Shown: one piece after another, positions 17,482 through 57,652 of the stretch
How positions within the stretch are numbered: the stretch's first letter is position 1
Layout of the letters: every line of letters begins with the position of its first letter
Translations under genes and position numbers: made by a program
Notes under the pieces: generated by a model
What the model was told of the DNA's origin: nothing
What the model saw: only the letters and a program-made list of their open reading frames with translations
Database searches by the model: none
NCBI RefSeq assembly: GCF_040529185.1
Contig: NZ_CP159510.1
Span: forward strand, 2,790,001 to 2,854,000
Direction: 5' to 3'
Length of the DNA: 64,000 nt
From: Sporolactobacillus sp. Y61
GTDB lineage: Bacteria > Bacillota > Bacilli > Bacillales > Sporolactobacillaceae

Positions 17482-17485
17482 ATTC

Positions 17486-20195: not shown

Positions 20196-20240
20196 TCTGC
20201 CTGGTCATCTCTCTCCCTGAGTAAAATCATAGCTGAAAAA

Positions 20241-21620
20241 TTAATGGATTTGAACCGCCTGTTCCGTTTTTTTCCCTGTTTTTCCATCCATTTCATCCTG
20301 TTCAGCGGTCTTTCCGCCTTTTGAGGTATCATCGTGAGACGTCCCCGATGTGACGCTATCCGAAATATGAAAGATATCGGCAAAGAGACGGATGGCTTCC
20401 CTGCCGCTGTTTTGAACGGCAAGTTCCTTGATTTTACTGATCGGATCCCTCAGCAACTGATTAATCATGCTTTTGGTATGTTTGCTGATTACCTTTCTTT
20501 CGTGTTCGGTCATCTCCGGAAGTTTGTGATCAAGACTCGTCATCGTTTCCGCATGAATCTCCAGTGCCTTTTTCCTGAGCGCGGTGATCACCGGAACAAC
20601 CCCGAGGGTCTGCAGCCATTCCTCATACTTTACCATCTGCTGCTCAATCATCGGAACGATGCGCTTAGCAGCCTGCAGACGTGCCTCTCTGTTATTTTCG
20701 ATGACATCTTTAAGATCGTCGATATCAGAAAGAAACACGCCTTCGATTTTTCCCGCCTCAGGATCAATATTGCGCGGAACACCAATATCTACAAGAATAA
20801 GAGGACGCCTCTCACGCCCGGACATTGCGGAATGAATTTCTTTTCCCGTAAGCAGATACTCATGTGCCGAAGTCGCCGTAATCACAATATCCGACTCTCT
20901 GATTAAATGATTTCGACTGTCAAAGCGCACCGGCCTTCCGCCACACTGCGCTGCAAGGTGAACCGCTTTCTCTGTGGTTCTGTTCGCAATCAAAAGATCT
21001 CCGGCACCATTACCGGCAAGATGCTTCAGAGCCAGTCTGCTCATTTTACCGGCACCAATCATCAGTACCGTTTTATCTTCAAGAGTGCCAAACCGGTGGC
21101 GCAGCATTTCTACAGCCGCATAACTCACGGAAACCGGATGATCATTAATCTGTGTGACATGCTGAGCTTTTCTGGCTACGGTCAGTGCTTCCTTGAACAG
21201 TTCATTAAAAAACGTCCCTGTTGTCCCCGCCGACTGTGCAGTCAAAAAACTGTTTCTGACCTGTCCGAGAATCTGTGTCTCCCCCAGAATCATGGAATCA
21301 AGTCCGCAAGTCACACGAAAAAGATGATCCATTGCTTCCCTGCCATGCTTTATAAAAAGGAAGGGTTCAAGATCTGCTATGGAAAGATGGAACCATTCAG
21401 CAAAGAATCTTTTTGTATAATAGCGTCCCGTGTGCAGTTGATCACTGACAACATAGATTTCTGTGCGATTACATGTAGAAATAATGACATCTTCAAAAAT
21501 ACTTTTCGTATTCCGCAAAATTGTTAGCGCTTTCTCAATACCTGATTTATTAAACGCCAAATGTTCCCTTATATGGACCGGAGCACTGTGATAGTTGACT
21601 CCCACTGCCAGAATGTGCAT
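20241..21620 (-). CDS. hemA: Glutamyl-tRNA reductase
   Basis: First committed enzyme of C5 heme synthesis; it reduces Glu-tRNA to glutamate-1-semialdehyde with NADPH. 459 residues from ATG 21620, set by a GGGGGAG ribosome site. The catalytic cysteine is in IISTCNRTEIY, the substrate motif is MILGETQILGQVR, and the NADPH fold is VLMIGAGKMSRLALKHL. A C-terminal dimerisation helix and an extra acidic tail follow. First gene of the operon, with a sigma-A-type promoter just upstream. Confidence 0.97.
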   Translation of the reverse strand: MHILAVGVNYHSAPVHIREHLAFNKSGIEKALTILRNTKSIFEDVIISTCNRTEIYVVSDQLHTGRYYTKRFFAEWFHLSIADLEPFLFIKHGREAMDHLFRVTCGLDSMILGETQILGQVRNSFLTAQSAGTTGTFFNELFKEALTVARKAQHVTQINDHPVSVSYAAVEMLRHRFGTLEDKTVLMIGAGKMSRLALKHLAGNGAGDLLIANRTTEKAVHLAAQCGGRPVRFDSRNHLIRESDIVITATSAHEYLLTGKEIHSAMSGRERRPLILVDIGVPRNIDPEAGKIEGVFLSDIDDLKDVIENNREARLQAAKRIVPMIEQQMVKYEEWLQTLGVVPVITALRKKALEIHAETMTSLDHKLPEMTEHERKVISKHTKSMINQLLRDPISKIKELAVQNSGREAIRLFADIFHISDSVTSGTSHDDTSKGGKTAEQDEMDGKTGKKTEQAVQIH

Positions 21621-21708
21621 GAAACTCCCCCACATATAAATAAACACTTCACAAGACCATGTATGATCGTATGATAAAGAGATTTCCTTTATTTATGCCT
21701 CTTATTTC

Positions 21709-31841: not shown

Positions 31842-32018
31842 ATCAGTGGGGGCTTTTCGAGCGCACAGGATGTGCTTGTGCGGGCGTTGCGACAGGACGT
31901 CCCCGTTTTTAGCCTGCGCGCATCCCCTGCTGATTGTTCGTTGGATTCATCGGGCTGCGCGGGCAGTGATCCCCGGCATGCTCATGACCCTGAGGTAGAC
32001 CTGCCCGTTCAGGCGGGA
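31842..32018 (+). repeat. Dispersed structured repeat, copy 2
   Basis: Same element as at 9415-9608, opposite strand. It begins ATCAGTGGGGGCTTTTCG and ends CCCGTTCAGGCGGGA. The core GCGTTGCGACAGGACG, then CCCGTTTTTAGCCTGCGC, is almost unchanged. Where copy 1 pairs GCAGGC with GCCTGC, this copy has GCGGGC, which still pairs through a G-U. The middle part has diverged. It fills the gap between the converging YolD-like and alcohol dehydrogenase genes and ends eight bases from the latter's stop. Confidence 0.85.
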
Positions 32019-33457: not shown

Positions 33458-34117
33458 ATGGCTAAGGATGTGTCCACTTTGCCTTTTTCCGCTTACCGAA
33501 TCTATCAGCTGCTGCTCTCTTTCAGCCTCGCCCTTTTTATCATTTGTACAGCTGTTCAGATTACACTTCTTTTTAAGCCGCTTTATTATTTTGATATCGG
33601 TTATCTGAATATTGAAGAGCAATCCGGCCTCGACCGGGATACGATAACTGAAAATTACGATTACATGATCAATTTTCTAATGAATCCGGTTCCTCAGGAG
33701 TTTCATCTTCCGTCCCTGGACTATTCAAGCCATGGAGCGATCCACTTTCAGGATGTGAAGCGGATCTTTACCGCCATCTATTTACTTATCGCTATAACCG
33801 GGATCATCAGTGCAATCGGTCTGTATGTCAATATTAAGAAAAAAGATTTTCACTTTCTGAAAATCACGGCGACTGCTTTAGCTCTGTTTACGGCGATCCC
33901 ACTGATTGCATTTGTACTGGATTTCAACGCAGCCTTTGTCTTTTTTCACGAAATACTTTTTACAAATGATTACTGGATTTTCGATGCGGCTTCAGACCCG
34001 GTCATCACCATTCTCCCGGAAACCTTCTTTCTGCATGCCGCACTGCTCATCCTTGGCCTTATTGCCATCGGGATGATCATCCTGCTTATCGCAGGAAAAA
34101 AGCTGAGCAAAAAATAA
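33458..34117 (+). CDS. TIGR01906/DUF1461 membrane protein, Lit-like
   Basis: 219 residues with four to five membrane helices. The family patterns HGAIHFQDVKRIF (after a large outer loop) and FVFFHEILFTNDYWIFDAASDPV are present. Members of this family include Lit, which moves an acyl chain within lipoproteins in low-GC Firmicutes and uses conserved histidines. The match to that activity is inference. ATG 33458 has no clear ribosome site; the in-frame TTG at 33479 sits behind AAGGATG and may be the real start. Confidence 0.7.
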   Translation: MAKDVSTLPFSAYRIYQLLLSFSLALFIICTAVQITLLFKPLYYFDIGYLNIEEQSGLDRDTITENYDYMINFLMNPVPQEFHLPSLDYSSHGAIHFQDVKRIFTAIYLLIAITGIISAIGLYVNIKKKDFHFLKITATALALFTAIPLIAFVLDFNAAFVFFHEILFTNDYWIFDAASDPVITILPETFFLHAALLILGLIAIGMIILLIAGKKLSKK

Positions 34118-34213
34118 ACCGGATCAGGCCGGATGACAAAAAATTTGAGAATACATTGACAGACGTTCAACGAAACACTAAAATAATAAAGGTCGTTAAC
34201 ATAAAGATAATTT

Positions 34214-34287
<74 letters not shown>

Positions 34288-34293
34288 TCGTGG

Positions 34294-34319
34294 AAAGCCT
34301 TGATACATAAGGCTTTTTT
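34294..34319 (+). terminator. Terminator of tRNA-Arg
   Basis: AAAGCCTT and AAGGCTTT form the stem, followed by T residues, seven bases after the tRNA. Confidence 0.85.
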
Positions 34320-34329
34320 ATTTTGCCAT

Positions 34330-34844
34330 TATTTGGTTGAAAGAGGGATTGGGAGCGAATTGGGGCAGAATTTTATTTTTAGTGACATCATGCACCTTTT
34401 CAAGTGACCAGATAGATATAGCCCATTTCCCCGAGAGTATTTTATTTTCCATTACCATTTTTCTCACTCTATCCCTTGATTCACCGTCTCTGTTAACTGC
34501 TTAAGTACGCGTGCAACGGGATAAATGCATCGTCTTCACCATCAGGAAAGTCTCTTCTGATTCGGATTTTATAAGCGTTGGTCTTTGACCCTATTTCTTT
34601 TTGAAAAAGTCCATGGTCGTCTCCCGAGAAACCATGGGACTTTTGTTCCGCATCGATATGATAGCAAGAAATAGCGTACGTTTTTTATTTGGAAATCAAA
34701 AAAGAGCCAGGACGTTCGCGGTACCGCGAACCATTCTTCACCATCCCTCCATGAAGATTCGTGTCTGTTTCCATGCAAGCCATTTTTATTCACTCTATCG
34801 CGCAGCCACTTGCACATTCTGGCCAGGACGTTGTGTACTTTCAT
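34330..34844 (-). pseudogene. Decayed or doubtful coding stretch next to tRNA-Arg
   Basis: An ATG at 34844 follows a good GGGAG ribosome site and opens a frame (MKVHNVLARMCKWLRD) that stays open to 34569, but its later part loses protein-like character. A second frame, ending at 34493, then reads like real protein (AYKIRIRRDFPDGEDDAF, then IPLHAYLSS), and a third ends beside the tRNA (ILPQFAPNPSFNQIMAK). The change of frames suggests a broken gene of unknown kind. A strong hairpin (34604-34644) and an 18-base perfect palindrome (34714-34731) lie inside it. Confidence 0.3.
34604..34644. terminator. Two-way hairpin in the post-tRNA stretch
   Basis: AAAAGTCCATGGT pairs with ACCATGGGACTTTT around a 12-base loop. 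T runs occur on either strand, so it could end transcripts from both sides. Confidence 0.6.
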
Positions 34845-34949
34845 TACGATCACTCCCTTTTTTGTTTTTTTCACGCGATAAGAGAAATATATTTAATAGA
34901 TAGATTGCAATAATAAATTAGCCATCTGGACATTCAGCGGTATCACTGG

Positions 34950-34981
34950 GTTTGTTCCTGCCGCCCAGGTGGCAGGAACAA
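34950..34981. repeat. Strong inverted repeat upstream of pepX
   Basis: TTTGTTCCTGCC and GGCAGGAACAAA form a perfect 12-bp inverted repeat with an eight-base loop. No T tract follows on the plus strand, so its role as a terminator is unclear. Between here and pepX no gene is seen. Confidence 0.6.
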
Positions 34982-35136
34982 AAGGCAACTTAGTCCGCCA
35001 ATTTCTATAGTCCCGAACGCTTCAGCAGGCCTCCCCTACTGTACAAATCCTCAATATGAATGGAGTTATCTCATCATTTAACTGCATTTGAAATCCGGTT
35101 CACCTGGCATGAAAGCCGGAAGGTCCTGCTGCATGC

Positions 35137-35150
35137 TATAATAACTCCAT
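35137..35150 (+). promoter_or_regulatory. -10 region of pepX with inverted-repeat arm
   Basis: A perfect TATAAT (35137-35142) lies 38 bases before the pepX start. ATAACTCCAT (35141-35150), overlapping it, is the exact complement of ATGGAGTTAT at 35057-35066, so the pair could be an operator or could form a long-range loop. No good -35 is visible. Confidence 0.4.
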
Positions 35151-35179
35151 CAGGACTAATACATAAGGAGTTCTTTTCA

Positions 35180-37602
35180 ATGAAAAATAATCAATTTGCA
35201 AGGCTTAACGCCGATCATCAGATGGTGATTGAAGAATTGCAGCGCATTCATTTTATTGATGACTCAGTTCAGGCTGCTTCAACGCCGTCAGCTGCATATC
35301 GTTTATTACTGCGCAAAGCTTTTTTAAATGTCAAAGGAGAAAGTGCCTTTGACGCCAAACTGAAAAATATTCTCGCAGCCCCTGATATCAATCTGGCAGA
35401 TTACCTGAGCTCAGGTCAGCCTGTCACCCGGAAAGTCTTCTATCTTGTCGCTCTTCAGCTGTGCGGATTCCTCGCAGATATCGACTATGATATAGAGGAT
35501 CCGCTGGCGGCTATGGAGAAAATACAATTGCCCTATCTTCATGCCAGGGGAGAATGGGATACAGATCGGTTACTGGATGCCTGGTACCTGCTTCTGACCA
35601 CCCATACTAAGGGAGGACAGACCTTTCTGGATCAGTTGACGAATCAGGGATATTTCGTCCCATTTTATGATTTACCGGCTGACAGAAAGCCCCTGTTCTT
35701 TAATGGAAAAGCCCAGGCCGTCTTCGATACCTCCCGACTGATTCGCGAGGTCGTCTATGTCGAATCCTCTGTTGACGCCGATCAGGACGGTATGCGTGAT
35801 TTACTCAAAGTCGAAATCATCCGCCCGGAGGATACAAACAAAGGGCTCAAAGTCCCCGTCCTCTATACTGCCAGTCCTTACAATCAGGGAATCAATGATG
35901 AAGCCGGGAAGAAAGCGACCCATAATGTGAATGTCCCTCTTACAGAAAAAAAGCCGGATGACGTTCACTATGAGGATATTGCCTGGAAGGGCAGAAAATG
36001 TTCACTGCCCGACCCGCGCCCGGTTGCCGGAACAACAAAAGACACATGTGAAACATTCAGTCATGAATGGTCATATACATTAAATGATTATTTTCTGGCA
36101 CGCGGGTTCGCCGTCGTTTATTCTGCGGGAATCGGTACACGGGATTCAGACGGGATACAGACCTGCGGGGACCCACAGCAGACAGAGGCGACGATTGATG
36201 TGATCGAATGGCTAAGCGGCAGGCGACGGGCGTTTACCAATCGCACCGATAACATGGCAATCGATGCCTGGTGGTGCTCGGGTTCTGTCGCCATGACCGG
36301 CCGTTCGTATCTGGGAACGCTGGCTACGGCAGCCGCTGCAACCGGTGTTGAAGGCCTGAAAACAATAATTCCCGAAGCAGCTATCTCTTCCTGGTACGAT
36401 TATTACCGCGCCGGCGGCCTGACCCTGGCTCCCGCGGTTTTCCCGGAGAAGACGCGGATGTGCTGGCTATTGAAACATTAAGCAGGATGAAATCCGCCGC
36501 CGATTACCAGTTAAACATAAAAAACTTCTTTGAAAAACAAATGAAGCAAATGGCCAGGGATATGGACCGTGAATCGGGCAACTACAATACCTTCTGGGAT
36601 GCCCGTAATTACTTAAACAATGTTCAAAAGATCAAATGCGATGTTCTGATGGTCCATGGTCTGAACGACTGGAACGTCAAACCCCGCCAGGCGGAACAAT
36701 TATGGCAGAAACTGCGTCATGTCCCGGTATGCAAAAAAATCATTCTGCATCAGGGACAGCATATTTATATCAATGCCTTTCGTTCTATTGATTACACAGA
36801 TATCGTTAATCTCTGGATCAGCCACGAACTGTATGGCATCTCAAACGGGGTAAAAGAGCTTCTGCCGCCGGTTATCGTACAGGATAATGTCGTTCCGGAA
36901 ACCTGGCATGCTTATCCGGATTGGTCTGAACCGGATCTGCAAAAATCCACCCTTTATTTTTCCCCGGGAAAGCTGGCCTCAGAGCCCGATTCACATCAGA
37001 TTCTGTCATTTAAAGATCAGCTGCCCGAGGAGGTCTTTAATCGCTATTGTGCGCATGTTGATCAATGGTCCCATGATATTCTCGATGATCAGAAAAACCC
37101 GCTGAGTGAAAACCGGTTGCTGCTTAAGTCCGAAAAAATGACCGGGGACAGAATCATTGATGGAAAGGTCGGCGTTCATGCCCGGGTCGCTTCGAACCGC
37201 CCGTTCGGCCTGCTCAGTTTTCAGCTGGTCGACTACGGTGAAGCGCGCCGGCTGAATGCTTCACCTTCCCCGATTCAGCGCCTGGATCTGGGCTATCACT
37301 GGCGTGAGGACAGGCTTCGTGAATTCACATTAGCCAGGTTTCCCACTCCCTTCAAAATGATCACAAAAGGTCATATCAATCTGCAAAACAGAGAAAACAC
37401 CTGGAAGGTGGATGAGCTGAAGCCGGATCAGTTCTATGATATAGCCACTGAATTACAGCCGACCTTCCATAAACTGGTTACCGGTCACCGTCTGGGCTTG
37501 ATCGTCTATGCCACTGATTTCGGCATGACTGTGCGCGGTAACCAGCCTCTGCGTTATTCACTGGCACTGGACCACAGTTTTCTTACGATTCCTTTCAAAT
37601 AA
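35180..37602 (+). CDS. pepX: X-prolyl dipeptidyl aminopeptidase, broken by one frameshift
   Basis: Serine peptidase releasing X-Pro dipeptides, typical of lactic acid bacteria. The first frame runs from ATG 35180 (AAGGAG ribosome site) to 36481, the second from about 36436 to 37602. Adding one G in CCCGCGG (36431-36437) restores LAPGGFPGEDADVL and gives about 807 residues, normal for PepX. The catalytic triad is intact across both parts: Ser in GRSYLGTLA, Asp in HGLNDWNV and His in HQGQHIYINAF. Either a recent pseudogene or a sequencing error. A terminator follows. Confidence 0.93.
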
Positions 37603-37615
37603 TCAAAAATGAACT

Positions 37616-37650
37616 GAGCAGCCGATAAAATTCCTCACCGGCTGCTTTTT
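37616..37650 (+). terminator. Terminator after pepX
   Basis: GAGCAGCCG and CGGCTGCTT form the stem around a loop, followed by TTTTT. Confidence 0.85.
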
Positions 37651-37688
37651 CTATGTGAAAAATCACAGAACGAAGCGGTCCCCTTTTG

Positions 37689-37741
37689 TATAATGAATGT
37701 TAATGGTTTCCATCAGCAACGATCATGCTGCTTTGGAAACT
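37689..37741 (+). promoter_or_regulatory. Promoter and structured leader of the SCIFF gene
   Basis: TATAAT (37689-37694) is a good -10; no clear -35 is seen. The leader then has GGTTTCC and AGCA pairing with TGCT and GGAAAC (37704-37741), a hairpin about 50 bases before the peptide start. No known riboswitch was recognised. Confidence 0.45.
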
Positions 37742-37788
37742 GTTCGGGTGAAGATATAAAAATGTTTTTAATCAAAGGGGACGAACCG

Positions 37789-37938
37789 ATGAAAAGAATC
37801 ATCTCACTGAACACGATGGATCTGAAAGAATCGATGAAACATGGCGGCCATGGTGAATGCCAGACTTCCTGCCAGTCTGCATGCAAAACCTCCTGTGGCG
37901 TTGCTAATCAGAAATGTGCTGAACCGGCAGGTAAATAA
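37789..37938 (+). CDS. scfA: SCIFF-type ranthipeptide precursor
   Basis: 49 residues. A leader MKRIISLNTMDLKESMKHGG is followed by a core with cysteines at 24, 28, 32, 36 and 43 (CQTSCQSACKTSC, then GVANQKC). This is the SCIFF (six cysteines in forty-five residues) family pattern, whose maturase crosslinks Cys sulfur to partner residues as thioethers. Only five cysteines are present: position 21, three before the first one, is His where I would expect another Cys. The ribosome site is AAAGGGG. The maturase gene follows after a hairpin, as in Clostridia. The biological role of SCIFF peptides is not known. Confidence 0.93.
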   Translation: MKRIISLNTMDLKESMKHGGHGECQTSCQSACKTSCGVANQKCAEPAGK

Positions 37939-37951
37939 GTGGTCTTTGCGA

Positions 37952-37986
37952 AACCGTCTGCCTGATCTGCGGCAGACGGCTGTTTT
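37952..37986 (+). terminator. Hairpin between peptide and maturase genes
   Basis: ACCGTCTGCC and GGCAGACGG form the stem, followed by CTGTTTTT, 14 bases after the peptide stop. Partial termination here would give more precursor than enzyme. Confidence 0.8.
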
Positions 37987-38101
37987 TCATCCCATAAGAA
38001 GAATCACATTGTCAAAAAAGTATTCGAAAAACAAAGCCCCCGCAACGCCCGCGACTTGCCGGCCGGCAGATTTTTCTTCATAAAGGAGTCCAACACCACT
38101 T

Positions 38102-39511
38102 ATGATTCACCAATATAAACTGAACGGGTACAATATTGTTCTTGATACCTACAGCGGAGCCGTACATGTTGTCGACGACCTGGCCTATGATGTCATTGCC
38201 CTGTACTCACATCACACCGCTGAAGAAATTATTTCGCAGCTGATGGAGAAATATACGGGACATGAAGACGTCACGAAGGAGGAGATAAGGAACACATGGA
38301 ATGAAGTCGGCAAACTGAAAGAAAACGGACAGCTGTTTAGCGAAGATGCATACAAAGATCTGTCCTTCGATCTGAGTAAACGAAAAACGTATATTAAAGC
38401 GCTCTGTCTGAATGTGGCCCATACCTGCAACCTGTCCTGTGATTACTGCTTTGCCAGTCAGGGAAAATATCATGGCGCACGGGCAATCATGAGCTTTGAA
38501 GTCGGTAAACGGGCGATTGATTTTCTCCTTGAAAACTGTGGTTTCCATCGAAATCTCGATGTCGATTTCTTCGGCGGTGAACCGCTGATGGACTGGAAAG
38601 TAGTCAAACAGCTGGTTGCCTACGCCCGAAGCAAGGAAAAGGCATGTGGCAAAACTTTCCGTTTCACCCTGACGACGAATGGCATGCTGCTGAAAGACGA
38701 GATCGTTGATTTTCTGAATAAGGAAATGCACAATGTGGTTCTGAGCCTTGACGGCAGGAAGGAAGTCCACGACCGGCTGCGTAAAACGGTTAATGGAAAA
38801 GGCAGCTACGACTATATTGTTCCGAAATTCCAAAACTTCGTCAAAAAGCGCGGAGATAAAGAATATTACGTACGCGGTACATTTACTCATAATAATGTGG
38901 ATTTTACTAATGACATTTTCCATATGGCTGACCTGGGATTCAAACGGCTCTCCATGGAACCGGTCATTTGCGACCCGAAGGAACCTTATGCCCTGAAGCA
39001 GGAAGACCTTCCGGAGATTTACCACCAGTACGAATTGCTTGCTGAAGAGATGCTCAGACGCGAAGAACAGGGCCACGGCTTCATCTTCTATCACTACATG
39101 CTGGATTTGACGGAAGGTCCCTGCATCCATAAGAGGATTTCCGGGTGCGGATCCGGAACAGAGTATCTCGCGGTCACACCATGGGGTGAATTATTCCCGT
39201 GTCATCAGTTTGTCGGCGACCCGGCCTACAGCATGGGCAACATCTGGGACGGGATCATAAAGCCGGAGATTCAGAACCGGTTCAAACAGGTCACCTGCTA
39301 CAGCAAACCGGAATGCCGGGACTGCTGGGCGAAATTGTATTGCAGCGGCGGATGTCCGGCTAATGCACTCCATGCCACCGGTTCGCTGAACGGAAATTTT
39401 TCTTTCAGCTGTGACGTTTTCCGTAAACGGATCGAATGTGCCATGATGATTAAAGCAGCTGAATCGCTGAAGGCTATGAAGGATCAGAAGCAAAGGGCAA
39501 CTGAAGCCTGA
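38102..39511 (+). CDS. scfB: Radical-SAM SCIFF maturase
   Basis: 469 residues. An N-terminal peptide-recognition region (QYKLNGYNIVLDTYSGAVHV, residues 1-90) is followed by the radical-SAM motif CNLSCDYC (near residue 110) and the GGEP motif (FFGGEPLMDW). A C-terminal SPASM domain carries many cysteines (ISGCGSGTEY, GELFPCHQF, CRDCWAKLYCSGGCPANALH, SCDVFRKRIEC) for two extra Fe-S clusters. It forms thioether links in the SCIFF peptide. GGAG lies about 13 bases before ATG 38102. A terminator follows, so peptide and enzyme form a closed two-gene unit with no exporter or protease. Confidence 0.95.
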   Translation: MIHQYKLNGYNIVLDTYSGAVHVVDDLAYDVIALYSHHTAEEIISQLMEKYTGHEDVTKEEIRNTWNEVGKLKENGQLFSEDAYKDLSFDLSKRKTYIKALCLNVAHTCNLSCDYCFASQGKYHGARAIMSFEVGKRAIDFLLENCGFHRNLDVDFFGGEPLMDWKVVKQLVAYARSKEKACGKTFRFTLTTNGMLLKDEIVDFLNKEMHNVVLSLDGRKEVHDRLRKTVNGKGSYDYIVPKFQNFVKKRGDKEYYVRGTFTHNNVDFTNDIFHMADLGFKRLSMEPVICDPKEPYALKQEDLPEIYHQYELLAEEMLRREEQGHGFIFYHYMLDLTEGPCIHKRISGCGSGTEYLAVTPWGELFPCHQFVGDPAYSMGNIWDGIIKPEIQNRFKQVTCYSKPECRDCWAKLYCSGGCPANALHATGSLNGNFSFSCDVFRKRIECAMMIKAAESLKAMKDQKQRATEA

Positions 39512-39554
39512 CTGCCCGGCGAGATACGGACACCTTGAAATAGAATCATACCTG

Positions 39555-39584
39555 ACACCGGCAATCTGCCCGGTGTTTTTTTAT
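39555..39584 (+). terminator. Terminator after the SCIFF maturase
   Basis: ACACCGG and CCGGTGT form the stem, followed by seven T residues. Confidence 0.85.
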
Positions 39585-39665
39585 TTTCATTTTTCCGGTT
39601 AAAGTCTGGTAACACATTTTGATCATTGTTATATCATATTTTACCCTCTGACCCTGTTTTCCTTG

Positions 39666-39701
39666 TATAATAGATGATGAAAGACAGTGTAATCGTTTAC
39701 A
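39666..39701 (+). promoter_or_regulatory. -10 and cre-like site before fbp
   Basis: TATAAT at 39666-39671 is followed by GTGTAATCGTTTACA (39687-39701), which has two mismatches to the cre consensus but is a near-perfect palindrome (TGTAA and TTACA). CcpA bound just downstream of the start point would repress this gluconeogenic gene on glucose. Confidence 0.4.
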
Positions 39702-39734
39702 GCTTGTTTTCGGCAAAAATGAGGAGGCTGGCCA

Positions 39735-41741
39735 TTGGATAAAAAGTATAAAAAGTATCTTGATTTACTTGCTGAGAAATATGACTGTGAAGAGAAAGTC
39801 GTTACTGAGATTATCAACCTGGAGGCGATATTAAACCTGCCAAAGGGAACGGAACATTTTGTCAGTGATCTGCACGGCGAATTTCATGCGTTCCAGCATG
39901 TGCTCCGAAACGGATCAGGAAATGTGAAACAGAAAATCAGGGATTTATTCCAGAATGAACTGCCTGAAGAAGAGATGAATGAGTTTGCTGTCCTCGTCTA
40001 TTATCCGGAGGAAAAACTCAAACTGATCAGAAGCAGTATCAGAACTGAAGACGAACTGAATCAGTGGTACAGTCAGACGATTGCCCGAATGATTCGTCTG
40101 GTCGCTTTCGCCTCATCGAAGTATACCCGCTCCAAAGTTCGCAAAGCCCTTCCTGAACAATTCGTCTATATTACAGAGGAACTCTTATATAAAACCGATG
40201 AATTTTCCAACAAAAAAAGCTACTATGCGAAAATCATCCAGAGCATTCTGTCACTCGGTGAAGCTGGTAAACTGATTACTGGCCTTGCGTACACCATTCA
40301 GCGACTGGTGGTCGATCATCTCCATGTCGTAGGCGATATTTATGACCGGGGGCCGGATCCGGATAAGATTATGGATACCCTGATGCATTACCACTCAGTA
40401 GACATCCAGTGGGGAAACCACGACGTCCTGTGGATCGGCGCTTTTTCCGGATCAAAGGTTTGCCTGGCCAATATTCTCCGCATATGTGCCAGATATAATA
40501 ATCTGGATATTATTGAGGATGTGTACGGAATCAATCTGATCCCGCTGCTCAATCTGGCAGAAAAATACTATGATGACAATCCGGCATTTCGGCCAAAACT
40601 GGGACCGGATGACGGTCAGCTGACCCAAAATGAGATCCTGCAGATTACTAAGATGCATCAGGCTATCTCTATCATCCAGTTTAAACTGGAAATGCCAATT
40701 ATTAAGCGCCGGCCAGATTTTCAAATGCAGCGCCGTCTGGTTCTGGAGAAAGTAGATTACAACCGTGATACCATTGAACTGGGCGGTAAAACATGGAAGC
40801 TGAAGAACACCTGTTTTTCCACTATTGACCCTGAACATCCTGAACGGTTGCTCGATGAAGAAGAAAAAGTTATTGATAAACTGCTGTTCTCTGTGCAGCA
40901 TTCTGAAAAACTCGCCAGACATATGCAGTTTCTTGTCAGAAAAGGCAGCCTTTATCTGAAATATAACGGCAATCTGCTGATCCACGGGTGCATCCCGCTC
41001 AACGAAGATGGCAGTATGAAAAAGATGACCATTGAAGGAAAAACATACGCAGGAAAAGAGCTGCTTGATCTTTTTGAACATAACCTGCGTGAGTGCTTCG
41101 CGCACCCTGAGAAGACGGATGATCTGGCAACCGACATGGTCTGGTATTTATGGACAGGTGAGAATTCATCACTTTTCGGGAAAAGGGAAATGACCACCTT
41201 CGAACGGTATTTTATCAGTGAAAAAGAAACGCATGTGGAAAAGAAAAATCCCTATTACCGTCTGCGCGCTGAAGAAGGAGTCTGCCGCAAGATATTGGCA
41301 GAATTCCATCTGGATCCAGATGAGGGACACATCATCAACGGCCATACACCGGTTGAAGAAAAAAACGGAGAAAATCCAATTAAGGCAAACGGTAAAATGA
41401 TTGTCATTGATGGTGGATTTTCTAAAGCTTATCAGCCAAAGACGGGGATCGCCGGATACACGCTTCTTTATAACTCTTACGGTATGCAGCTTGTCGCCCA
41501 TCAGCACTTTTCATCGAAAGCCGATGTCCTGCGAACCGGTTCCGATGTCCTGTCCGTCCGCAGGCTGGTCGACCGTGAACTGCGTCGAAAAAAAGTTGCA
41601 GAAACAAATACCGGCAAAGCGCTGAAAGAACAGATCTTAATCCTTAAAGATCTTTTAAAATATAAATATTCCAAAATAAGTAAAACATCAATCAGTGAGG
41701 GTTTTACGGGCAGTGATCCTGCACCCGGCCATGTTCGTTGA
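39735..41741 (+). CDS. fbp: Fructose-1,6-bisphosphatase, class III
   Basis: Gluconeogenic phosphatase of the type found in Bacillus and Clostridium, with a calcineurin-like metal site. 668 residues, normal length. Metal motifs [12 protein letters not shown] (near residue 36), [25 protein letters not shown] and, late, [13 protein letters not shown] are intact. The start is TTG 39735 with a GAGGAGG ribosome site. The final 16 residues ([16 protein letters not shown]) are encoded by a copy of the dispersed repeat, so the native tail has been replaced or extended. Confidence 0.95.
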
Positions 41742-41772
41742 CCCTGAAGCAGCACTGCCGTTTCATGCGGGA
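41691..41772 (+). repeat. Dispersed structured repeat, short copy 3
   Basis: It starts ATCAGTGAGGG and ends TGCGGGA like the other copies. The conserved core (GTTGCGACAGG to TAGCCTGC) is missing, and the join passes directly to GGGCAGTGATCC, a part also seen in copy 2. It overlaps the last 16 codons and stop of fbp and lies just before the fbp terminator. Confidence 0.75.
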
Positions 41773-41794
41773 TAAAATAAACGTATATTCATCT

Positions 41795-41831
41795 GACTCC
41801 GGGGATGCTCAGCCATCCCCGGAGTTTTTTT
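41795..41831 (+). terminator. Terminator after fbp
   Basis: ACTCCGGGGATG and CATCCCCGGAGT form a strong stem, followed by TTTTTTT. Confidence 0.92.
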
Positions 41832-41981
41832 GTCCCATTGTTTGCTTATATTCAATATATAATTATCGTTTATCAATAAATTTATACTGTTTTTCAACAT
41901 AAAATATGTTATACTCAGTTCTGAAAAATAATTCTGCTCATAGCTTAAACCTGAAAATGACATGTAAAGGAGTGTCACACA

Positions 41982-43550
41982 TTGAACCCTCTTAAAACAC
42001 AAAAGACAGACGGAGACATGCAACCTGCTGCCCTTCATCAAAAACGATGCTGGATACTGATTGTCAGTGCTGCTCTTATCGGTATTCTGGCGAATGTCCT
42101 CTTTTTTGATAAAAATCCGGGATTGTCTTATCCGATTTTTGTGATCGCCTTTTATGGCGCATTTTTCCTGAACGCCGGTAAGGCAATGAGGATCAGGCCG
42201 GATTTCGGCTGGCTGCTGCTGATTCCGGTGAGCCTGCTGTCACTGACCTGGCTCATCTTCTCAAATCCGCTGTTCCATGCACTGAATTTTATTGCCATAC
42301 CCATACTTATTGTCATTCAAACGACACTGATCAGCGGCAGAGCCAGTGAGCAATGGTCTTCCTTCTTTTTCATCAGAGATGTACTCTATGGCTTTTTCTA
42401 TCGGCCGTTCGCCTATATTGCGCTTCCCTTTCGGATCATTGCCGGATTCATTCGTTCGCGATCGGGCCTGAAGAAAAACAGCACATTTCTGAAGGTCATA
42501 CTGGGCGTGATAGCTACTGTTCCTCTGCTGGTCATTATTGTCTCGCTTCTCGCATCGGCAGACATTGAGTTTGAACGTCTGGTTAACCGGCTTCCCGGGT
42601 TTTTCTTTCATTTAAATTTTAATGATTGGTTACCACAGTTTCTATTTGCTGCGGGGGTAGCGATCCTGACCTTCAGTTATTTGTGGAGCCTGATTATTCC
42701 TTCCGGTGCAGATCGGTCTCCGAAGAAAAGACAGACGGTCACGGATAGCGGTCTGGATCCTGTCATCTCTGTGACCATGCTGAGTATGATCAATATGATC
42801 TACCTGCTGTTTACCTGGATCCAGTTCTCCTATCTGTTCAGCGGCTTTTCCTTCTCGCTCCCGGATCATTTCACTTATGCCGAATACGCCCGACGCGGGT
42901 TCTTTGAACTGATACTGGTCACACTGATTAATTTTACCATTCTGATTATCCTGATTTACTTTACCAGAAAAAGTAGCACAGGCATGAACTTGGTTTTAAA
43001 AAGTTTTCAGTCCCTGCTTGTTCTGTGCACAGGCATCATGCTACTTTCCGCATTCATCAGAATGTACCTGTATGAAATGATGTATGGTTTTACGTATTTA
43101 CGCATTCTGACGCATGCCTTTATGATCTTTCTCTTTGTCCTGCTCATCCTCACTCTGGTCCGTATCTGGAGGGAAAACATCAATTTGTGGAAGGGGCTGA
43201 TCCTGAGTTCTGTTACGGCTTTTGTTCTTATTAATTATCTGAACATAGATGCTCTGATTGCCAACTACAACATTGACCGATACCAGATGACCGGTAAAAT
43301 AGATACCGTCTATCTTGGGACCCTGTCAGATGATGCTGTACCGGAGCTTGTCCGACTGCTTGGTGCAAAAGATGAACGTGTCTCGGCAAGAATGGAAAAT
43401 GAATTGCTGGAGCGTAAAAAGCGCCTTGACGCTGATCTGCCCTGGCAGTCATTCAACCTCTCAAAGGAAAGAGCACGAAAAATCCTGTCCGGATACCATT
43501 TGACCTTCCATCCCGGTTATGAATCCCATGTGGAATACCAGGAGCCCTGA
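41982..43550 (+). CDS. DUF4173 multi-span membrane protein
   Basis: 522 residues with about a dozen membrane helices. The layout and the C-terminal pattern LINYLNIDALIANYNIDRY, then KIDTVYLGTLSDDAVPELV, match the DUF4173/DUF4153 family of unknown function. The start is TTG 41982 behind AAAGGAGTG. It is flanked by the fbp terminator and the cation-efflux leader, so it is probably transcribed alone. Confidence 0.8.
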   Translation: MNPLKTQKTDGDMQPAALHQKRCWILIVSAALIGILANVLFFDKNPGLSYPIFVIAFYGAFFLNAGKAMRIRPDFGWLLLIPVSLLSLTWLIFSNPLFHALNFIAIPILIVIQTTLISGRASEQWSSFFFIRDVLYGFFYRPFAYIALPFRIIAGFIRSRSGLKKNSTFLKVILGVIATVPLLVIIVSLLASADIEFERLVNRLPGFFFHLNFNDWLPQFLFAAGVAILTFSYLWSLIIPSGADRSPKKRQTVTDSGLDPVISVTMLSMINMIYLLFTWIQFSYLFSGFSFSLPDHFTYAEYARRGFFELILVTLINFTILIILIYFTRKSSTGMNLVLKSFQSLLVLCTGIMLLSAFIRMYLYEMMYGFTYLRILTHAFMIFLFVLLILTLVRIWRENINLWKGLILSSVTAFVLINYLNIDALIANYNIDRYQMTGKIDTVYLGTLSDDAVPELVRLLGAKDERVSARMENELLERKKRLDADLPWQSFNLSKERARKILSGYHLTFHPGYESHVEYQEP

Positions 43551-43574
43551 AATCATGAACGGTTTGGATTGAAG

Positions 43575-43636
43575 TTAAAAACTCACGTCAGTCATGATAT
43601 AATAGAGATTCCCTGCACCTGCTGCAGGGAGTTTTT
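43575..43636 (+). promoter_or_regulatory. Promoter and hairpin leader of the cation-efflux gene
   Basis: TTAAAA and TATAAT (43598-43603) are 17 bases apart. Right after the start point CCCTGCA and TGCAGGG form a hairpin followed by AGTTTTTG, like a terminator. ACCTGCAGG farther on could pair with one arm instead. This leaves about 130 bases of leader before the gene and suggests attenuation. I could not match it to the known Mn or Ni/Co riboswitches. Confidence 0.4.
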
Positions 43637-43764
43637 GTTACCTGCAGGCAAATATTTTTCAGCATGGTGAATTTGATAAGCATCAGAAAAAAAGTTCCCG
43701 TAGACACACCCACAGCCATACTGGTAATATGTGGAGAGATTAGCGAAGCTGAGGACGTGTTCGT

Positions 43765-44661
43765 ATGATTCAGGATAAATATATGAATTTGAAGCGTGGG
43801 GAACGGGGAGCAGTGATCAGCATCATGGCTTACCTTGTTCTGTCGTGCCTCAAACTGATTATCGGGTTCTTCATGAATTCGAGGGCTTTAAGCGCAGACG
43901 GTCTGAACAATGCGACTGATATTGCTGCATCGCTTGCTGTGCTGATTGGTTTAAAAATGTCCCGCCGTCCCGCGGACAGTGATCATCCTTATGGACACTG
44001 GCGCAGTGAAACCATCGCTTCACTGGTTGCTTCATTCATCATGGTCGCTGTTGGACTGAATGTACTATACGACAGCATTCGGTCCATTTTTGCAGGTGAT
44101 CAGACCATTCCTGACGTCACAGCTGCATGGACAGGTATTTTTTGCGCAGTCATTATGTATTTGGTTTACCGTTATAATAAAAAACTTGCCAGAAAAATCA
44201 ACAGCTCTTCGGTCATGGCAGCTGCGAAAGACAATCTGTCTGATGCCTGGGTAAGCATCGGGACTGCTGTCGGTGTTTTCGGATCTCAGTTACATCTTCC
44301 CTGGCTGGATACCGTTGCCGCGATACTTGTTGGCATCCTGATCTGTAAAACCGGCTGGGATATTTTCAGAGAATCATCCTTTAATTTATCCGATGGATTT
44401 GATGAAAAAAAGATCAATGAATATACAGAAACGATCCGTTCTATCTCTGAAGTGGATGACGTCCGGACGATCAAGGCAAGGAACTATGGAAATAATACCA
44501 TTGTTGATGTGGTCATTCTGGTCAATCCCGAATCCGGACTGACCCATGCACATGATATTTCAACAGAAGTTGAGAAGGTCCTGGAGAAGAAACATGGCAT
44601 TTTTTCAGCCACGGTTCACGTGGAGCCAAATCTTCCGAAAAGTCGTCCGGTTCAGCAGTGA
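43765..44661 (+). CDS. Cation diffusion facilitator (metal efflux) protein
   Basis: 298 residues, six helices plus a C-terminal cytosolic domain. The metal site of helix 2 is in LSADGLNNATDIAAS, the loop has HPYGHWRSETIASL, and helix 5 has KDNLSDAWVS; these fit the Mn/Fe-type CDF group (B. subtilis MneP/MneS). The C-terminal domain ends VHVEPNLPK. It probably exports Mn(II) or another divalent metal by proton exchange. The start could be ATG 43765 or 43783. No clear terminator follows before the converging ligD operon. Confidence 0.88.
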   Translation: MIQDKYMNLKRGERGAVISIMAYLVLSCLKLIIGFFMNSRALSADGLNNATDIAASLAVLIGLKMSRRPADSDHPYGHWRSETIASLVASFIMVAVGLNVLYDSIRSIFAGDQTIPDVTAAWTGIFCAVIMYLVYRYNKKLARKINSSSVMAAAKDNLSDAWVSIGTAVGVFGSQLHLPWLDTVAAILVGILICKTGWDIFRESSFNLSDGFDEKKINEYTETIRSISEVDDVRTIKARNYGNNTIVDVVILVNPESGLTHAHDISTEVEKVLEKKHGIFSATVHVEPNLPKSRPVQQ

Positions 44662-44808
44662 CGCCTCATGTTTTTTATGTACTCCCTCTGCCTCCCTGCC
44701 CTCGCCGAATTTTGAAAAGAAAAAAGAGAACCGGCGGGTCCTCATATGGGGGGTATTGCTTTATTTATTGCTCATATACTATAGCATATATTTTATCACT
44801 TTACCATA

Positions 44809-52139: not shown

Positions 52140-52910
52140 TTATACTTTGTCGCTGCCGAAGAAATCCCGGAAGGACTGACCGACTGTCGCACGGTTCAGG
52201 GCTGCGATTGATGTGGTCAGAGGAATCCCTTTCGGGCAAACCTGAACACAGTTCTGCGAGTTGCCGCAGCCTTCAATACCGCCTTTACCCATAATGGCAT
52301 GCAGCCGTTCTGCCCGATTGAGCGCTCCAGTCGGGTGGGCGTTGAACAGACGTACCTGAGACAGTGGGGCAGGTCCCATAAAATCAGATTTACTGTTGAC
52401 ATTCGGGCAGGCTTCCAGGCAGACCCCGCAGGTCATACATTTTGACAGTTCATAAGCCCACTCACGTTTACTTTCGGCCATTCGGGGACCGGGTCCCAGA
52501 TCATATGTGCCGTCAATCGGAATCCATGCTTTGACTTTTTTCAGTGCGTCAAACATCCTGCTACGGTCGACAATCAGATCACGGACGATCGGAAAGGTCT
52601 TCATCGGTTCCAGATGCACCGGTTTTTCCAGTTTATCGATAAGTGCGGTGCAGGCCTGGCGCGGACGTCCGTTAATGACCATCGAACAGGCACCGCACAC
52701 TTCCTCCAGACAGCTCATCTCCCATTGCGGCGCAGTGGTCTTCTCTCCGCTGGCATTGACCGGATTTTTTCTAATCGCCATCAGTGCTGAAATCACGTTC
52801 ATATTCGGGCGATAGGGGACATTAAACGTTTCCTGATAAGGGGTTGAACCCGGCCCGTCCTGTCGTGTGATAATCAGCTGAAAAGATTTCGGATGATTAG
52901 ATTCACTCAT
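52140..52910 (-). CDS. sdhB: Succinate dehydrogenase iron-sulfur subunit
   Basis: 256 residues from ATG 52910. It carries the three clusters of SdhB: [2Fe-2S] in SCLEEVCGACSMVINGRPRQAC, [4Fe-4S] in CMTCGVCLEACPN and [3Fe-4S] in CGNSQNCVQVCPKG. It passes electrons from SdhA to the cytochrome b of SdhC. Last gene of the sdhCAB operon, starting inside the end of sdhA. Confidence 0.97.
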   Translation of the reverse strand: MSESNHPKSFQLIITRQDGPGSTPYQETFNVPYRPNMNVISALMAIRKNPVNASGEKTTAPQWEMSCLEEVCGACSMVINGRPRQACTALIDKLEKPVHLEPMKTFPIVRDLIVDRSRMFDALKKVKAWIPIDGTYDLGPGPRMAESKREWAYELSKCMTCGVCLEACPNVNSKSDFMGPAPLSQVRLFNAHPTGALNRAERLHAIMGKGGIEGCGNSQNCVQVCPKGIPLTTSIAALNRATVGQSFRDFFGSDKV

Positions 52911-52926
52911 GGTTTCTTCCCCCCTG

Positions 52927-54678
52927 TTAATGTGCATGAGTATAATCTCTTTTACGCGGTTTAATCAAAGAAATGTCAACGTCTTCATATTCAAAGTCCG
53001 GTCCGTTTTTCTCCGGATTGAACTTCGCTTTCGTTGTTTTCAGCCAGTTTTTATCATCACGCTCAGGGAATTCCGGTTTATAATGGGCACCCCGGCTTTC
53101 ATTACGATTATAAGCACCCAGTGTAATGACTCTGGCGAGCTGAAGCATATCCCACAGCTGACGTGTGAAGGATACAGCCCCATTACTCCATTTGGACGTA
53201 TCATTAATGTTTATGTTCTTGAACCGCTCCATTAATTCCTGAATATGTTCATCCGTCTCCAGCAATGTTTTATTTTCGCGAACGACGGTGACGTATTTGG
53301 TCATCCATTCACCAAGTTCCTGGTGCAGAGCGTAAGCATTTTCCGTCCCGTCAAGTGAGATAATTTCCTTGTATTTTTCTTTTTCCTGCATCAGCGCGTC
53401 GTCGAAGATATAAGACGGTACATCGTCGCCACTCTTTTCCAGTCCTGAAATGTAGGAAACCGCATTCGGACCGGCCACCATGCCGCCATATAGCGCGGAG
53501 AGAAGTGAATTGGCACCGAGACGGTTGGCACCATGATACTGGTAATCACATTCACCACAGGCAAACAGACCCTTAATATTGGTCATCTGGTTAAAATCAA
53601 CCCACAGTCCACCCATTGAGTAATGAACGGCCGGGAAAACTTTCATCGGTACTTTATGTGGATCCTCGCCGACAAATTTTTCATAAATATCAATGATGCC
53701 GCCCAGTTTCACATCAAGTTCATGTGGATCCTTAAACGAAAGGTCCAGATAGACCATATTTTCTCCGTTGATACCAAGGTGCTTATTGATACAAACGTCA
53801 AAGATGGCGCGTGTTGCGACGTCACGTGGCACAAGGTTACCATACGCCGGATACATCTCCTCAAGGAAGTACCACGGTTTGCCATCTTTATATGTCCAAA
53901 GCCGGCCGCCTTCGCCACGGGCGGATTCACTCATCAGTCTGAGTTTGTCCTGACCGGGAATCGCTGTCGGATGGATCTGAATGAATTCCCCGTTAGCGAA
54001 GAAGGCTCCCTGCTGATAAAGGGTGGAGGCAGCTGAACCTGTGTTGATCATCGAGTTTGTTGATTTCCCATAAACCATTCCCAGGCCACCGCTTGCCATG
54101 ATCACCGCATCAGCACGGAACACCGAAATCTCCATCGATCTCATGTTCATGACCACAACGCCCCGGCAGACATGATCTTCATCGATAACCGCCCTCAGGA
54201 ACTCATAGTATTCGTGTTTGTGGACAAGGCCTTTCACTTCCTGGCGTCGGGTCTGTTCATCCAGCGCGTAAAGCAGTTGCTGTCCTGTTGTTGCTCCGGC
54301 ATACGCCGTGCGATGAAAGGTCGTTCCACCGAACCGGCGGAAATCCAGCAATCCCTCATGCGTACGATTAAACATGACACCCATACGGTCAAGCAAGTGA
54401 ATGATGCCCGGTGCCGCTTCACACATTGCCTTTACAGGGGGCTGATTTGCCAGAAAGTCTCCGCCATAAATCGTATCGTCAAAGTGATGCCATGGTGAAT
54501 CTCCTTCACCTTTTGTATTGACAGCCCCGTTGATCCCGCCCTGTGCACAAACCGAATGGGAACGTTTCACCGGGACAACTGAGAACAAATCAACTTCCAC
54601 ACCGGCTTCGGCCGCTTTAACCGCCGACATCAGTCCGGCGAGGCCGCCGCCGACTATGATTAATTTTCCTTTACTCAA
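52927..54678 (-). CDS. sdhA: Succinate dehydrogenase flavoprotein subunit
   Basis: 583 residues. The FAD fold is IIVGGGLAGLMSAVKAAEAG, and the FAD-linking histidine is in KRSHSVCAQGGINGAV. The active-site region FIQIHPTAIPG and SESARGEGGRLW, and the C-terminal HYSMGGLWVDF and CGECDYQYHGANRLGANSLLSALYGG, are intact. It oxidises succinate to fumarate in the TCA cycle. It lies 36 bases after sdhC. Confidence 0.97.
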   Translation of the reverse strand: MSKGKLIIVGGGLAGLMSAVKAAEAGVEVDLFSVVPVKRSHSVCAQGGINGAVNTKGEGDSPWHHFDDTIYGGDFLANQPPVKAMCEAAPGIIHLLDRMGVMFNRTHEGLLDFRRFGGTTFHRTAYAGATTGQQLLYALDEQTRRQEVKGLVHKHEYYEFLRAVIDEDHVCRGVVVMNMRSMEISVFRADAVIMASGGLGMVYGKSTNSMINTGSAASTLYQQGAFFANGEFIQIHPTAIPGQDKLRLMSESARGEGGRLWTYKDGKPWYFLEEMYPAYGNLVPRDVATRAIFDVCINKHLGINGENMVYLDLSFKDPHELDVKLGGIIDIYEKFVGEDPHKVPMKVFPAVHYSMGGLWVDFNQMTNIKGLFACGECDYQYHGANRLGANSLLSALYGGMVAGPNAVSYISGLEKSGDDVPSYIFDDALMQEKEKYKEIISLDGTENAYALHQELGEWMTKYVTVVRENKTLLETDEHIQELMERFKNININDTSKWSNGAVSFTRQLWDMLQLARVITLGAYNRNESRGAHYKPEFPERDDKNWLKTTKAKFNPEKNGPDFEYEDVDISLIKPRKRDYTHAH

Positions 54679-54714
54679 GTGGGCTCACTCCTTTTCATTT
54701 GGTAGTCAGATAGT

Positions 54715-55326
54715 TTAGATGAATGCGAACAGTGCGCGGACGCCCACGTAACCCAGCAGGACAAAAATAACAAGCGCTGCATAGGTACCGAATCTCTGAG
54801 ATTTGGGAGAAACAAGTATTCCCCAATGGACACAGAACGACCAAAGTCCATTTGAGAAATGGAACACAGCACTCAAAATGCCGATAATATAAAACACGAT
54901 AATACCTGTATTACCCAGAACATTTGCCATTAAGTCAAAATTAAGCGGCGTGCCTAAAGCCATGGCGACCCGCGTCTCCCAGACATGCCATGCGATAAAG
55001 ATGACCAGAAATAAACCCGATAATCTTTGCAGCAGGAACATCCAGTTTCTTAAAAACCCGAAGTTTCTGACATTGCTTTTTGCGGTAAAAGCAATATAGA
55101 TGCCGTAAATAGCATGGAACAGAATCGGCAGATAAATCAGCACGATCTCCATAAACAGCAGGTACGGCAAACTCTCCATAAACGCCGCGGCATTGTTGAA
55201 CGCACCAGGCCCCTTTGTTGCCTGATAATTGACAGTCAGATGCACAACCAGAAATAACCCGACAGGAACCACGCCAAGCAGAGAATGCCAACGGTGTCTG
55301 GCATACTCATGATCAGCCAAAGCCAT
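54715..55326 (-). CDS. sdhC: Succinate dehydrogenase cytochrome b558 subunit
   Basis: 203 residues with five membrane helices, anchor of the complex. Histidines in RWHSLLGVVPVG, FLVVHLTVN, LFHAIYGIY, IAWHVWETR and AVFHFSNGLW are placed as the heme ligands of the Bacillus two-heme type, which reduces menaquinone. The ribosome site is GGGGGAGAGG. First gene of the operon, divergent from yslB. Confidence 0.95.
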   Translation of the reverse strand: MALADHEYARHRWHSLLGVVPVGLFLVVHLTVNYQATKGPGAFNNAAAFMESLPYLLFMEIVLIYLPILFHAIYGIYIAFTAKSNVRNFGFLRNWMFLLQRLSGLFLVIFIAWHVWETRVAMALGTPLNFDLMANVLGNTGIIVFYIIGILSAVFHFSNGLWSFCVHWGILVSPKSQRFGTYAALVIFVLLGYVGVRALFAFI

Positions 55327-57427: not shown

Positions 57428-57652
57428 AAAAAGCAGCGAGAATCTCCCGCTGCTGAACTGTTTTTCCACAACATGCTGAGATAGTTCTCCACACCCGAAA
57501 AGTATGACAGCCCTGCATTTGTTCAATACAGATCCAGCACAAATCCGCGATGAACCGGACCGGCTTCGGCAGATTCCCCTTTCCCGCAGTACTCATCGAA
57601 TTTCATCCTTCTCATACTGCCTATTCATGGAATCTGCGCCTCTATCACATTA
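57428..57652 (-). promoter_or_regulatory. Lysine riboswitch (L box) of lysC
   Basis: The minus strand shows GTGATAGAGGCGCAGATT, AGTA, GGAAAGGGGAATCTGCCGAAG, GGGCTGTCAT and GAGAACTATCTCAG, the ordered elements of the lysine aptamer. AGCAGCGGGAG and CTCGCTGCT with TTTTTG (57428-57458) form the terminator. Lysine binding would stop lysC transcription. Between this and uvrC only a small CTGGC/GCCAG hairpin is seen. Confidence 0.93.

Follow-up and report, generated by a model that had tools for sequence, protein, structure and literature searches.

The closest described system to the locus considered here is CteA-CteB of Clostridium thermocellum (PDB 5wgg, 5why), the sole SCIFF maturase sequence among six matches in the PDB. 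In the available text of PMC8326336, a single thioether is reported for both Tte1186a and CteA, joining Cys32 (the fourth cysteine) to Thr37, and co-expression of CteA and CteB in E. coli is described as giving a Cys32-Thr34 link through the C-gamma. The same text places CteA Cys21 outside any thioether and, in the co-crystal with CteB, on the open Aux I iron, proposes that Cys21 at this cluster mimics Cys32, and leaves open whether further cysteines are crosslinked in the native SCIFF product. In the accessible part of PMC6231123, density at CteB Aux I is attributed to this CteA cysteine, which is residue three of the core, and what Aux I does in CteB is described as unclear. With regard to function, two reviews (PMC8326336, PMC8102284) point to quorum sensing in clostridia, with Chen et al. 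2020 as their source, which makes the "unknown function" assigned to SCIFFs in a sequence-only reading of the present locus a dated description. As far as the available text of PMC8102284 goes, disruption in C. beijerinckii (Chen et al. 2020) was accompanied by lower expression of sporulation genes and higher expression of agr, and no link to sporulation could be made in C. ljungdahlii. Another ranthipeptide, also from a Bacilli host, is freyrasin (PapA-PapB, Paenibacillus polymyxa), for which the available text of PMC8172795 describes six Cys-Asp links in Cys-X3-Asp motifs.

The window, a stretch of 64,000 nucleotides from the Bacillales bacterium Sporolactobacillus sp. Y61, contains a SCIFF precursor gene and, after an intergenic gap of 163 bases, a SCIFF maturase gene (Table 1). 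The precursor translates to MKRIISLNTMDLKESMKHGGHGECQTSCQSACKTSCGVANQKCAEPAGK and in profile searches lies well above the cut-offs of TIGR03973 (50; E 3.6e-21) and of the Pfam SCIFF family PF13165 (27). The maturase scores 752.8 bits against TIGR03974 (cut-off 425), and the runner-up model, NF040492, reaches 550.8 bits against its own cut-off of 855, as all 24 other models listed (77 matched) likewise fall under their own cut-offs. Membership of the maturase in another SPASM subfamily, a possibility that the sequence-only reading had itself raised, is thus ruled out, and its recognition of a SCIFF peptide with a radical-SAM/SPASM maturase in a Bacillales host holds. Both genes have a single match each in their own genome (3,224,419 bases, ~3.22 Mb). 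An identical maturase (100%) occurs in Sporolactobacillus sp. THM19-2 (locus L003), a separately deposited genome with which the locus DNA shares 99.5% identity across 13.4 kb.

Table 1. Features of the SCIFF locus and its surroundings, with positions counted from the first nucleotide of the window.
Feature	Position	Strand	Basis
Heme genes	16192-21647	minus	
Lit-family lipoprotein intramolecular transacylase	33458-34117		PF07314
Xaa-Pro dipeptidyl-peptidase, directly upstream of the pair	35060-37602		frameshifted in this assembly
Ribosome-binding-site-like AAAGGGG ahead of precursor	37774..37780	+	read from sequence
SCIFF precursor (ScfA), 49 aa, five cysteines	37789..37938	+	TIGR03973 74.8 bits, PF13165 75.5 bits
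His21, codon CAT, where the family's first cysteine (CteA Cys21) stands	37849..37851	+	sequence, alignment; role of CteA Cys21 from PMC8326336, PMC6231123
Cys32-Lys33-Thr34, donor cysteine and the acceptor used on CteA co-expression in E. coli	37882..37890	+	numbering matches CteA/Tte1186a per PMC8326336; conserved
Gly37, aligned with Thr37, the acceptor in vitro	37897..37899	+	sequence, alignment
Terminator-like 9-bp stem-loop with CTGTTTTTCA after it, in the gap between the two genes	37954..37979	+	folding; covariation, 21 distinct Bacilli segments
Ribosome-binding-site-like AAAGGAG ahead of maturase	38082..38088	+	read from sequence
SCIFF maturase (ScfB), 469 aa: N-terminal RRE-type region (by homology to CteB), radical SAM core, SPASM domain	38102..39511	+	TIGR03974, PF04055, PF13186, 5wgg match
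Radical-SAM CX3CX2C: Cys109, Cys113, Cys116	38426..38449	+	in 100/100 counted rows of maturase alignment
SPASM region: Cys341, 349, 367, 405, 408, 414, 418, 437, 446	39122..39439	+	all in 13/13 Sporolactobacillus rows
sdhCAB	52143-55326	minus	

The maturase resembles CteB, with which it shares 52% identity and the same SPASM cysteines (phmmer E 1.7e-162 against 5wgg), and the radical-SAM CX3CX2C and SPASM cysteines of CteB are conserved at their places in all 13 Sporolactobacillus rows. Its predicted fold has chain A of 5wgg as the top Foldseek match (TM 0.83), and the AlphaFold model has a mean pLDDT of 79.9, with low values around residues 117-122 and 412-416. A sequence search of the PDB with the precursor gave zero matches. 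Against the PapB model (NF047865) the maturase scores 269.3 bits, under the cut-off of 340, which places it outside the PapB family, and unlike freyrasin, the Sporolactobacillus peptide is without any Cys-X3-Asp. As a separate observation, the maturase carries an extra cysteine, Cys399 (39296-39298), six residues ahead of SPASM Cys405; this residue is present in 13/13 Sporolactobacillus rows and 9/9 rows from Bacilli whose precursors bear Cys21, and in 0/67 clostridial rows, and it could in principle alter cluster ligation. Long open reading frames also run antisense to the maturase, at 38207-39130 on the minus strand of the window (307 aa) and at 7299-8693 of locus L142 (465 aa), where the antisense frame was called in place of the maturase in the comparison; these frames are presumably a by-product of codon usage.

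Cysteines occupy residues 24, 28, 32, 36 and 43 of the precursor, giving five in place of the six in ~45 residues from which SCIFF takes its name. Because the first cysteine is replaced by His21, and because the cysteine count is not invariant elsewhere (Cys36 is absent from 13/272 cores outside the genus), the peptide is filed here as a five-cysteine variant and not as a typical member. The numbering of CteA can be used unchanged, because residue 32 here corresponds to the fourth cysteine of SCIFFs that have six. By this numbering, His21 falls at the Aux I contact, and the donor Cys32 and acceptor Thr34 are present as in CteA, while the precursor differs from CteA in having His for Cys21, Gly for Thr37, and a Bacillales genus as host. 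Residue 21 is of interest because CteA Cys21 is the peptide cysteine that the CteB co-crystal shows on the open iron of Aux I, a point absent from the sequence-only reading.

The five cysteines and His21 noted in the sequence-only reading were confirmed, and the check that it had proposed showed the missing cysteine to be lineage-wide. Among 15 Sporolactobacillus genomes (the genome of the window, one of the same species, and 13 others), residue 21 is His in 14, Arg in one (G393, codon CGC), and Cys in none, and all 15 retain Cys24, 28, 32, 36 and 43 as well as Thr34. Of the eight database clusters that carry the name Sporolactobacillus (P0001-P0005, P0007-P0009), six have His at this residue and two have Arg. 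A sequencing error at codon 21 is very unlikely, as L003 has the same codon and the other loci of the genus have CAT, CAC or CGC. The locus encodes a real five-cysteine SCIFF variant, and within the genomes searched this variant is fixed in a single genus.

Outside the genus, residue 21 is nearly invariant. A wide, gapless precursor alignment of 132 loci and of 240 database proteins (the top 120 of 1489 matches from one search and the top 120 of 675 from another) yielded 290 distinct cores covering residues 1-43, a sample that follows two queries and is not random; rows ending before residue 43 were left out, as were P0071 and P0193, which are without the QSAC anchor and both have Cys21. Eighteen of the cores were chosen by the motif GG[H/R]GEC, so that residue 21 in them is no independent count, and every one is named Sporolactobacillus or comes from a genome of that genus. 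The other 272 cores have Cys at residue 21 in 270 cases, and the two exceptions have Ser (P0051) and Phe (P0093); Cys36 is found in 259 of them and Cys43 in 270, and the 13 cores without Cys36 all have Thr37 and Cys21. Since the pattern used in the locus search itself required Cys24, 28 and 32, the 240 database rows were recounted with the ACK anchor only, which gave Cys21 in 229/231 rows outside P0001-P0009 and both Cys24 and Cys28 in 240/240. The CA-x-P tail of P0001-P0008 is absent from every Cys21 row among these 240.

The same counts bear on the acceptor residue. Thr37, the acceptor in vitro, is Gly in about half of the sampled precursors (Gly 153 and Thr 119 in the 272 cores; 120 each in the recounted rows), while Thr34 is constant (240/240 recounted rows). 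These sequence counts favour Thr34, rather than Thr37, as the general SCIFF acceptor. The Sporolactobacillus peptide, without Cys21 and without Thr37, bears both on the need for Cys21 ligation and on Thr34 as the lone acceptor.

From the missing cysteine, the sequence-only reading had expected a crosslink pattern differing from that of other SCIFFs, with a thioether set unlike that of six-cysteine members. This expectation does not follow, as Cys21 forms no thioether in the characterised products; in the available text of PMC8326336, Tte1186a and CteA show one thioether, from Cys32 to Thr34 or Thr37, and both Cys32 and Thr34 are intact in Sporolactobacillus. Were Cys21 a donor in vivo, its loss would drop one ring, and the same source does leave the crosslinking of other cysteines in the native product open, but a different set of crosslinks is on the whole unlikely. 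By analogy with CteA, the Sporolactobacillus product is inferred to carry the same crosslink, with Cys32 as the donor and Thr34 as the acceptor.

The simplest reading of the change at residue 21, by analogy with CteB, is that ligation by Cys21 is dispensable and that Aux I takes the donor thiol. If the contact of Cys21 in the CteB crystal stands in for the donor cysteine, the genus could lose Cys21 and drift to His or Arg, and the presence of two such unlike residues at this position fits a lost need for a thiol. Dispensability leaves unexplained some role that Cys21 has elsewhere, given its retention in nearly all cores and rows outside the genus. In this respect Sporolactobacillus, which removed exactly the substrate cysteine bound to Aux I yet kept the enzyme, provides a natural test of the role of that cysteine.

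A bolder alternative is a swap of ligands, in which His21 or Arg21 would take over from Cys21 at the open Aux I iron, tuning or gating the cluster while the core is threaded, so that the contact stays functional with no thiolate. His can ligate Fe-S clusters. The restriction of residue 21 to His and Arg, in all 15 genomes of the genus and the eight clusters bearing its name, would suit such a swap, but the two are very unlike as ligands, and their codons lie one or two transitions from Cys (TGY -> CGY -> CAY), so that mutation alone could yield this set. Non-cysteine Fe-S ligands, including Arg in BioB, are named in the accessible part of PMC6231123. Seven maturase sites that divide the 13 Sporolactobacillus rows from the 9 rows of Cys21-bearing Bacilli may also point in this direction (e.g., Arg282 in Sporolactobacillus, which is Lys in the Cys21-bearing Bacilli and Glu in 66/67 clostridial rows, and Ile/Val328, which is Thr in the Cys21-bearing Bacilli), although the sites are known by their position in the sequence and differences of this kind are expected between two clades. 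The swap is improbable, even though His and Arg, the sole residues observed here in the genus, are both able to bind iron; the more specific proposal of a genus-wide change at Aux I, with the His (or Arg) of the precursor and not Cys ligating the open iron during core modification, is slightly more doubtful again. If true, an auxiliary cluster of a SCIFF-type radical-SAM enzyme would receive a nitrogen ligand from the peptide substrate, and we know of no other such enzyme.

The pair is a constant feature of the genus. Both the maturase and the precursor exceed their cut-offs in the same 15/15 Sporolactobacillus genomes, whereas the precursor was found in 0/11 genomes from nine other genera of Sporolactobacillaceae. 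This confinement within the family, together with the loss of a nearly invariant residue, might be expected of a decaying relic, i.e., an acquired pair that is now losing function and shows the cysteine loss as a first sign. However, none of the 15 maturase matches has an internal stop, the remaining core residues of the precursor are retained, and its mean dN is low (0.067) against a mean dS of 1.53, a value near saturation, as computed from 73 of the 105 pairings of 15 sequences (44 codons; 32 pairs with undefined, saturated or zero values excluded). Decay, which also has to contend with the presence of both genes throughout the genus, is therefore very improbable.

SCIFF systems in Bacilli are uncommon yet already annotated. 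The precursor cut-off was exceeded in 11 of 397 genomes in a sample of the order (ten Sporolactobacillus and G184; a twelfth match, G322, was weak at 24.9 bits) and in 13 of 398 genomes in a sample of the class, two of which were Sporolactobacillus. The sequence-only reading called SCIFF, as a Clostridial system, unexpected in an aerobic-type spore former, and the rarity that this implies is borne out; the implied novelty is not, since NCBI names already call SCIFF in Sporolactobacillus and in the Bacillus cereus group, and the claim of presence is nearly ordinary. In the open-access full text, outside which most subscription papers lie, no paper on Sporolactobacillus with a ranthipeptide or SCIFF was found. 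The aerobic-type features of the host cited in that reading, heme genes and succinate dehydrogenase, are indeed in the window. Loss of Cys21 as an adaptation to oxygen was considered and rejected, as the precursor sequences of other Bacilli carriers retain this cysteine.

The closest maturases, with 72-81% identity to that of Sporolactobacillus, come from other Bacilli (Bacillus sp. EB600, Trichococcus palustris, and others). These systems resemble the Sporolactobacillus locus in having a similar intergenic hairpin and Gly37, and they differ in keeping Cys21 (GGCGAC) and in their CEN ends, compared with GG[H/R]GEC and mostly CA[E/D/A/V]P tails in Sporolactobacillus. A further group of SCIFF-like Bacilli precursors (L095, L096, L103-L109), each with a related maturase in its locus, is also one short of six cysteines, but here Cys36 is missing while Cys21 and Thr37 are kept. 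From the Bacillus cereus group (P0102), the precursor alone was seen.

One clade (100/98) of a 55-row maturase tree unites Sporolactobacillus with the Bacilli that bear Cys21 (Bacillus sp. EB600, Trichococcus palustris, and other genomes, from three families). The clostridial rows, for which the sample was 67 loci among the best 80 ranked maturase relatives plus CteB, lie outside this clade. Sporolactobacillus is not one clade in this tree, as L091 falls outside with weak support. A 29-row tree splits Sporolactobacillus from the Cys21-bearing Bacilli at 98/94. The most economical history would be a single loss of Cys21 (one change); the branch of the 29-row tree that separates Sporolactobacillus from all others has a support of only 53/27. 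The scattered carriers suggest transfer among Bacilli. A plasmid-borne system was also considered and rejected; a tblastn search with the maturase matched 227 plasmid records, all below 60% identity, and the top-ranked one (52%) was a 2.6-Mb Acetoanaerobium record.

The terminator-like hairpin between the two genes recurs among relatives. An ungapped hairpin detector found 17 in 25 distinct Bacilli spacers and 16 in 63 clostridial ones, compared with 6.0 expected in the 88 from mononucleotide shuffles. A comparable stem is present in each of 25 Bacilli entries, with z from -1.5 (L120) to -6.1, where the entries are segments cut by a pattern for that stem and include near-copies. Across the 21 segments that are distinct, pairing holds in 89.0% of pair cells, versus 25.8-45.6% in slid controls, with the structure having been read from the same sequences, a bias in its favour. 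Eight two-sided changes were counted against a shuffled mean of 1.9, a number that 0 of 500 shuffles attained; four pairs changed on both sides, which was equalled by 10 of 500 shuffles and by one slid control. One pair, at columns 8-22, fails to form in 14 of 19 cells. A smaller count of pairs on 16 hand-picked segments of the 25 gave a like result.

Taken with the conservation of both genes, these features lend themselves to the following sequence of steps, and it is fairly probable that the operon is complete and in working order along these lines, with a precursor that does without Cys21. The terminator-like hairpin, being conserved and covarying, would let just a fraction of transcripts continue into the maturase gene, yielding more precursor than enzyme. 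To judge from the CteB structure, the leader would then dock on the N-terminal RRE of the maturase. If the homology to CteA and CteB extends to the chemistry, the radical-SAM cluster would cleave SAM, the resulting 5'-deoxyadenosyl radical would remove a hydrogen atom at Thr34, and the thiol of Cys32, positioned on the open iron of the SPASM cluster Aux I, would close the thioether to Thr34. Cys21 would not be needed at any of these steps if its contact with Aux I in the crystal stands in for that of the donor cysteine. The clostridial reports suggest that the product is probably a regulatory or signalling peptide, which would be exported and trimmed by genes located elsewhere. AgrB (PF04647) was not found in the genome of the window, and the same search gave a weak, below-cut-off match in one of 14 control genomes.

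The surroundings of the pair were also compared. Genes scanned at 33458-44661 (Lit, the Xaa-Pro peptidase, fructose-bisphosphatase, DUF4153, and a cation diffusion facilitator) include no exporter. The sequence-only reading stated that neither an exporter nor a protease was nearby; the first half of this statement stands, but the second does not, as the Xaa-Pro dipeptidyl-peptidase adjoins the precursor upstream. In the available flanks of ten Sporolactobacillus loci, fructose-bisphosphatase occurs in five and the Xaa-Pro peptidase only in L003. A role for the peptidase as the dedicated leader protease was rejected on this distribution, and the enzyme is probably unrelated to the pair. Six other Bacilli loci share with the window no additional gene of its 26-50 kb region, and no further gene of this region accompanies the pair in all of the relatives compared.

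Three single-base length differences from L003 occur at 34432, 36433 and 38041, each next to a C run, and they are possibly a systematic assembly error and not biology. The difference at 36433 lies within the Xaa-Pro peptidase gene. One single-base difference cuts this gene into two open reading frames, and the L003 copy is intact (847 aa). A 16-base stretch at 44667-44682 is missing in L003. The window also contains several RNA elements, namely a T-box leader (9086-9336), a lysine riboswitch (57474-57652), and two Bacillaceae-1 RNAs (9522-9586 and 31862-31928).
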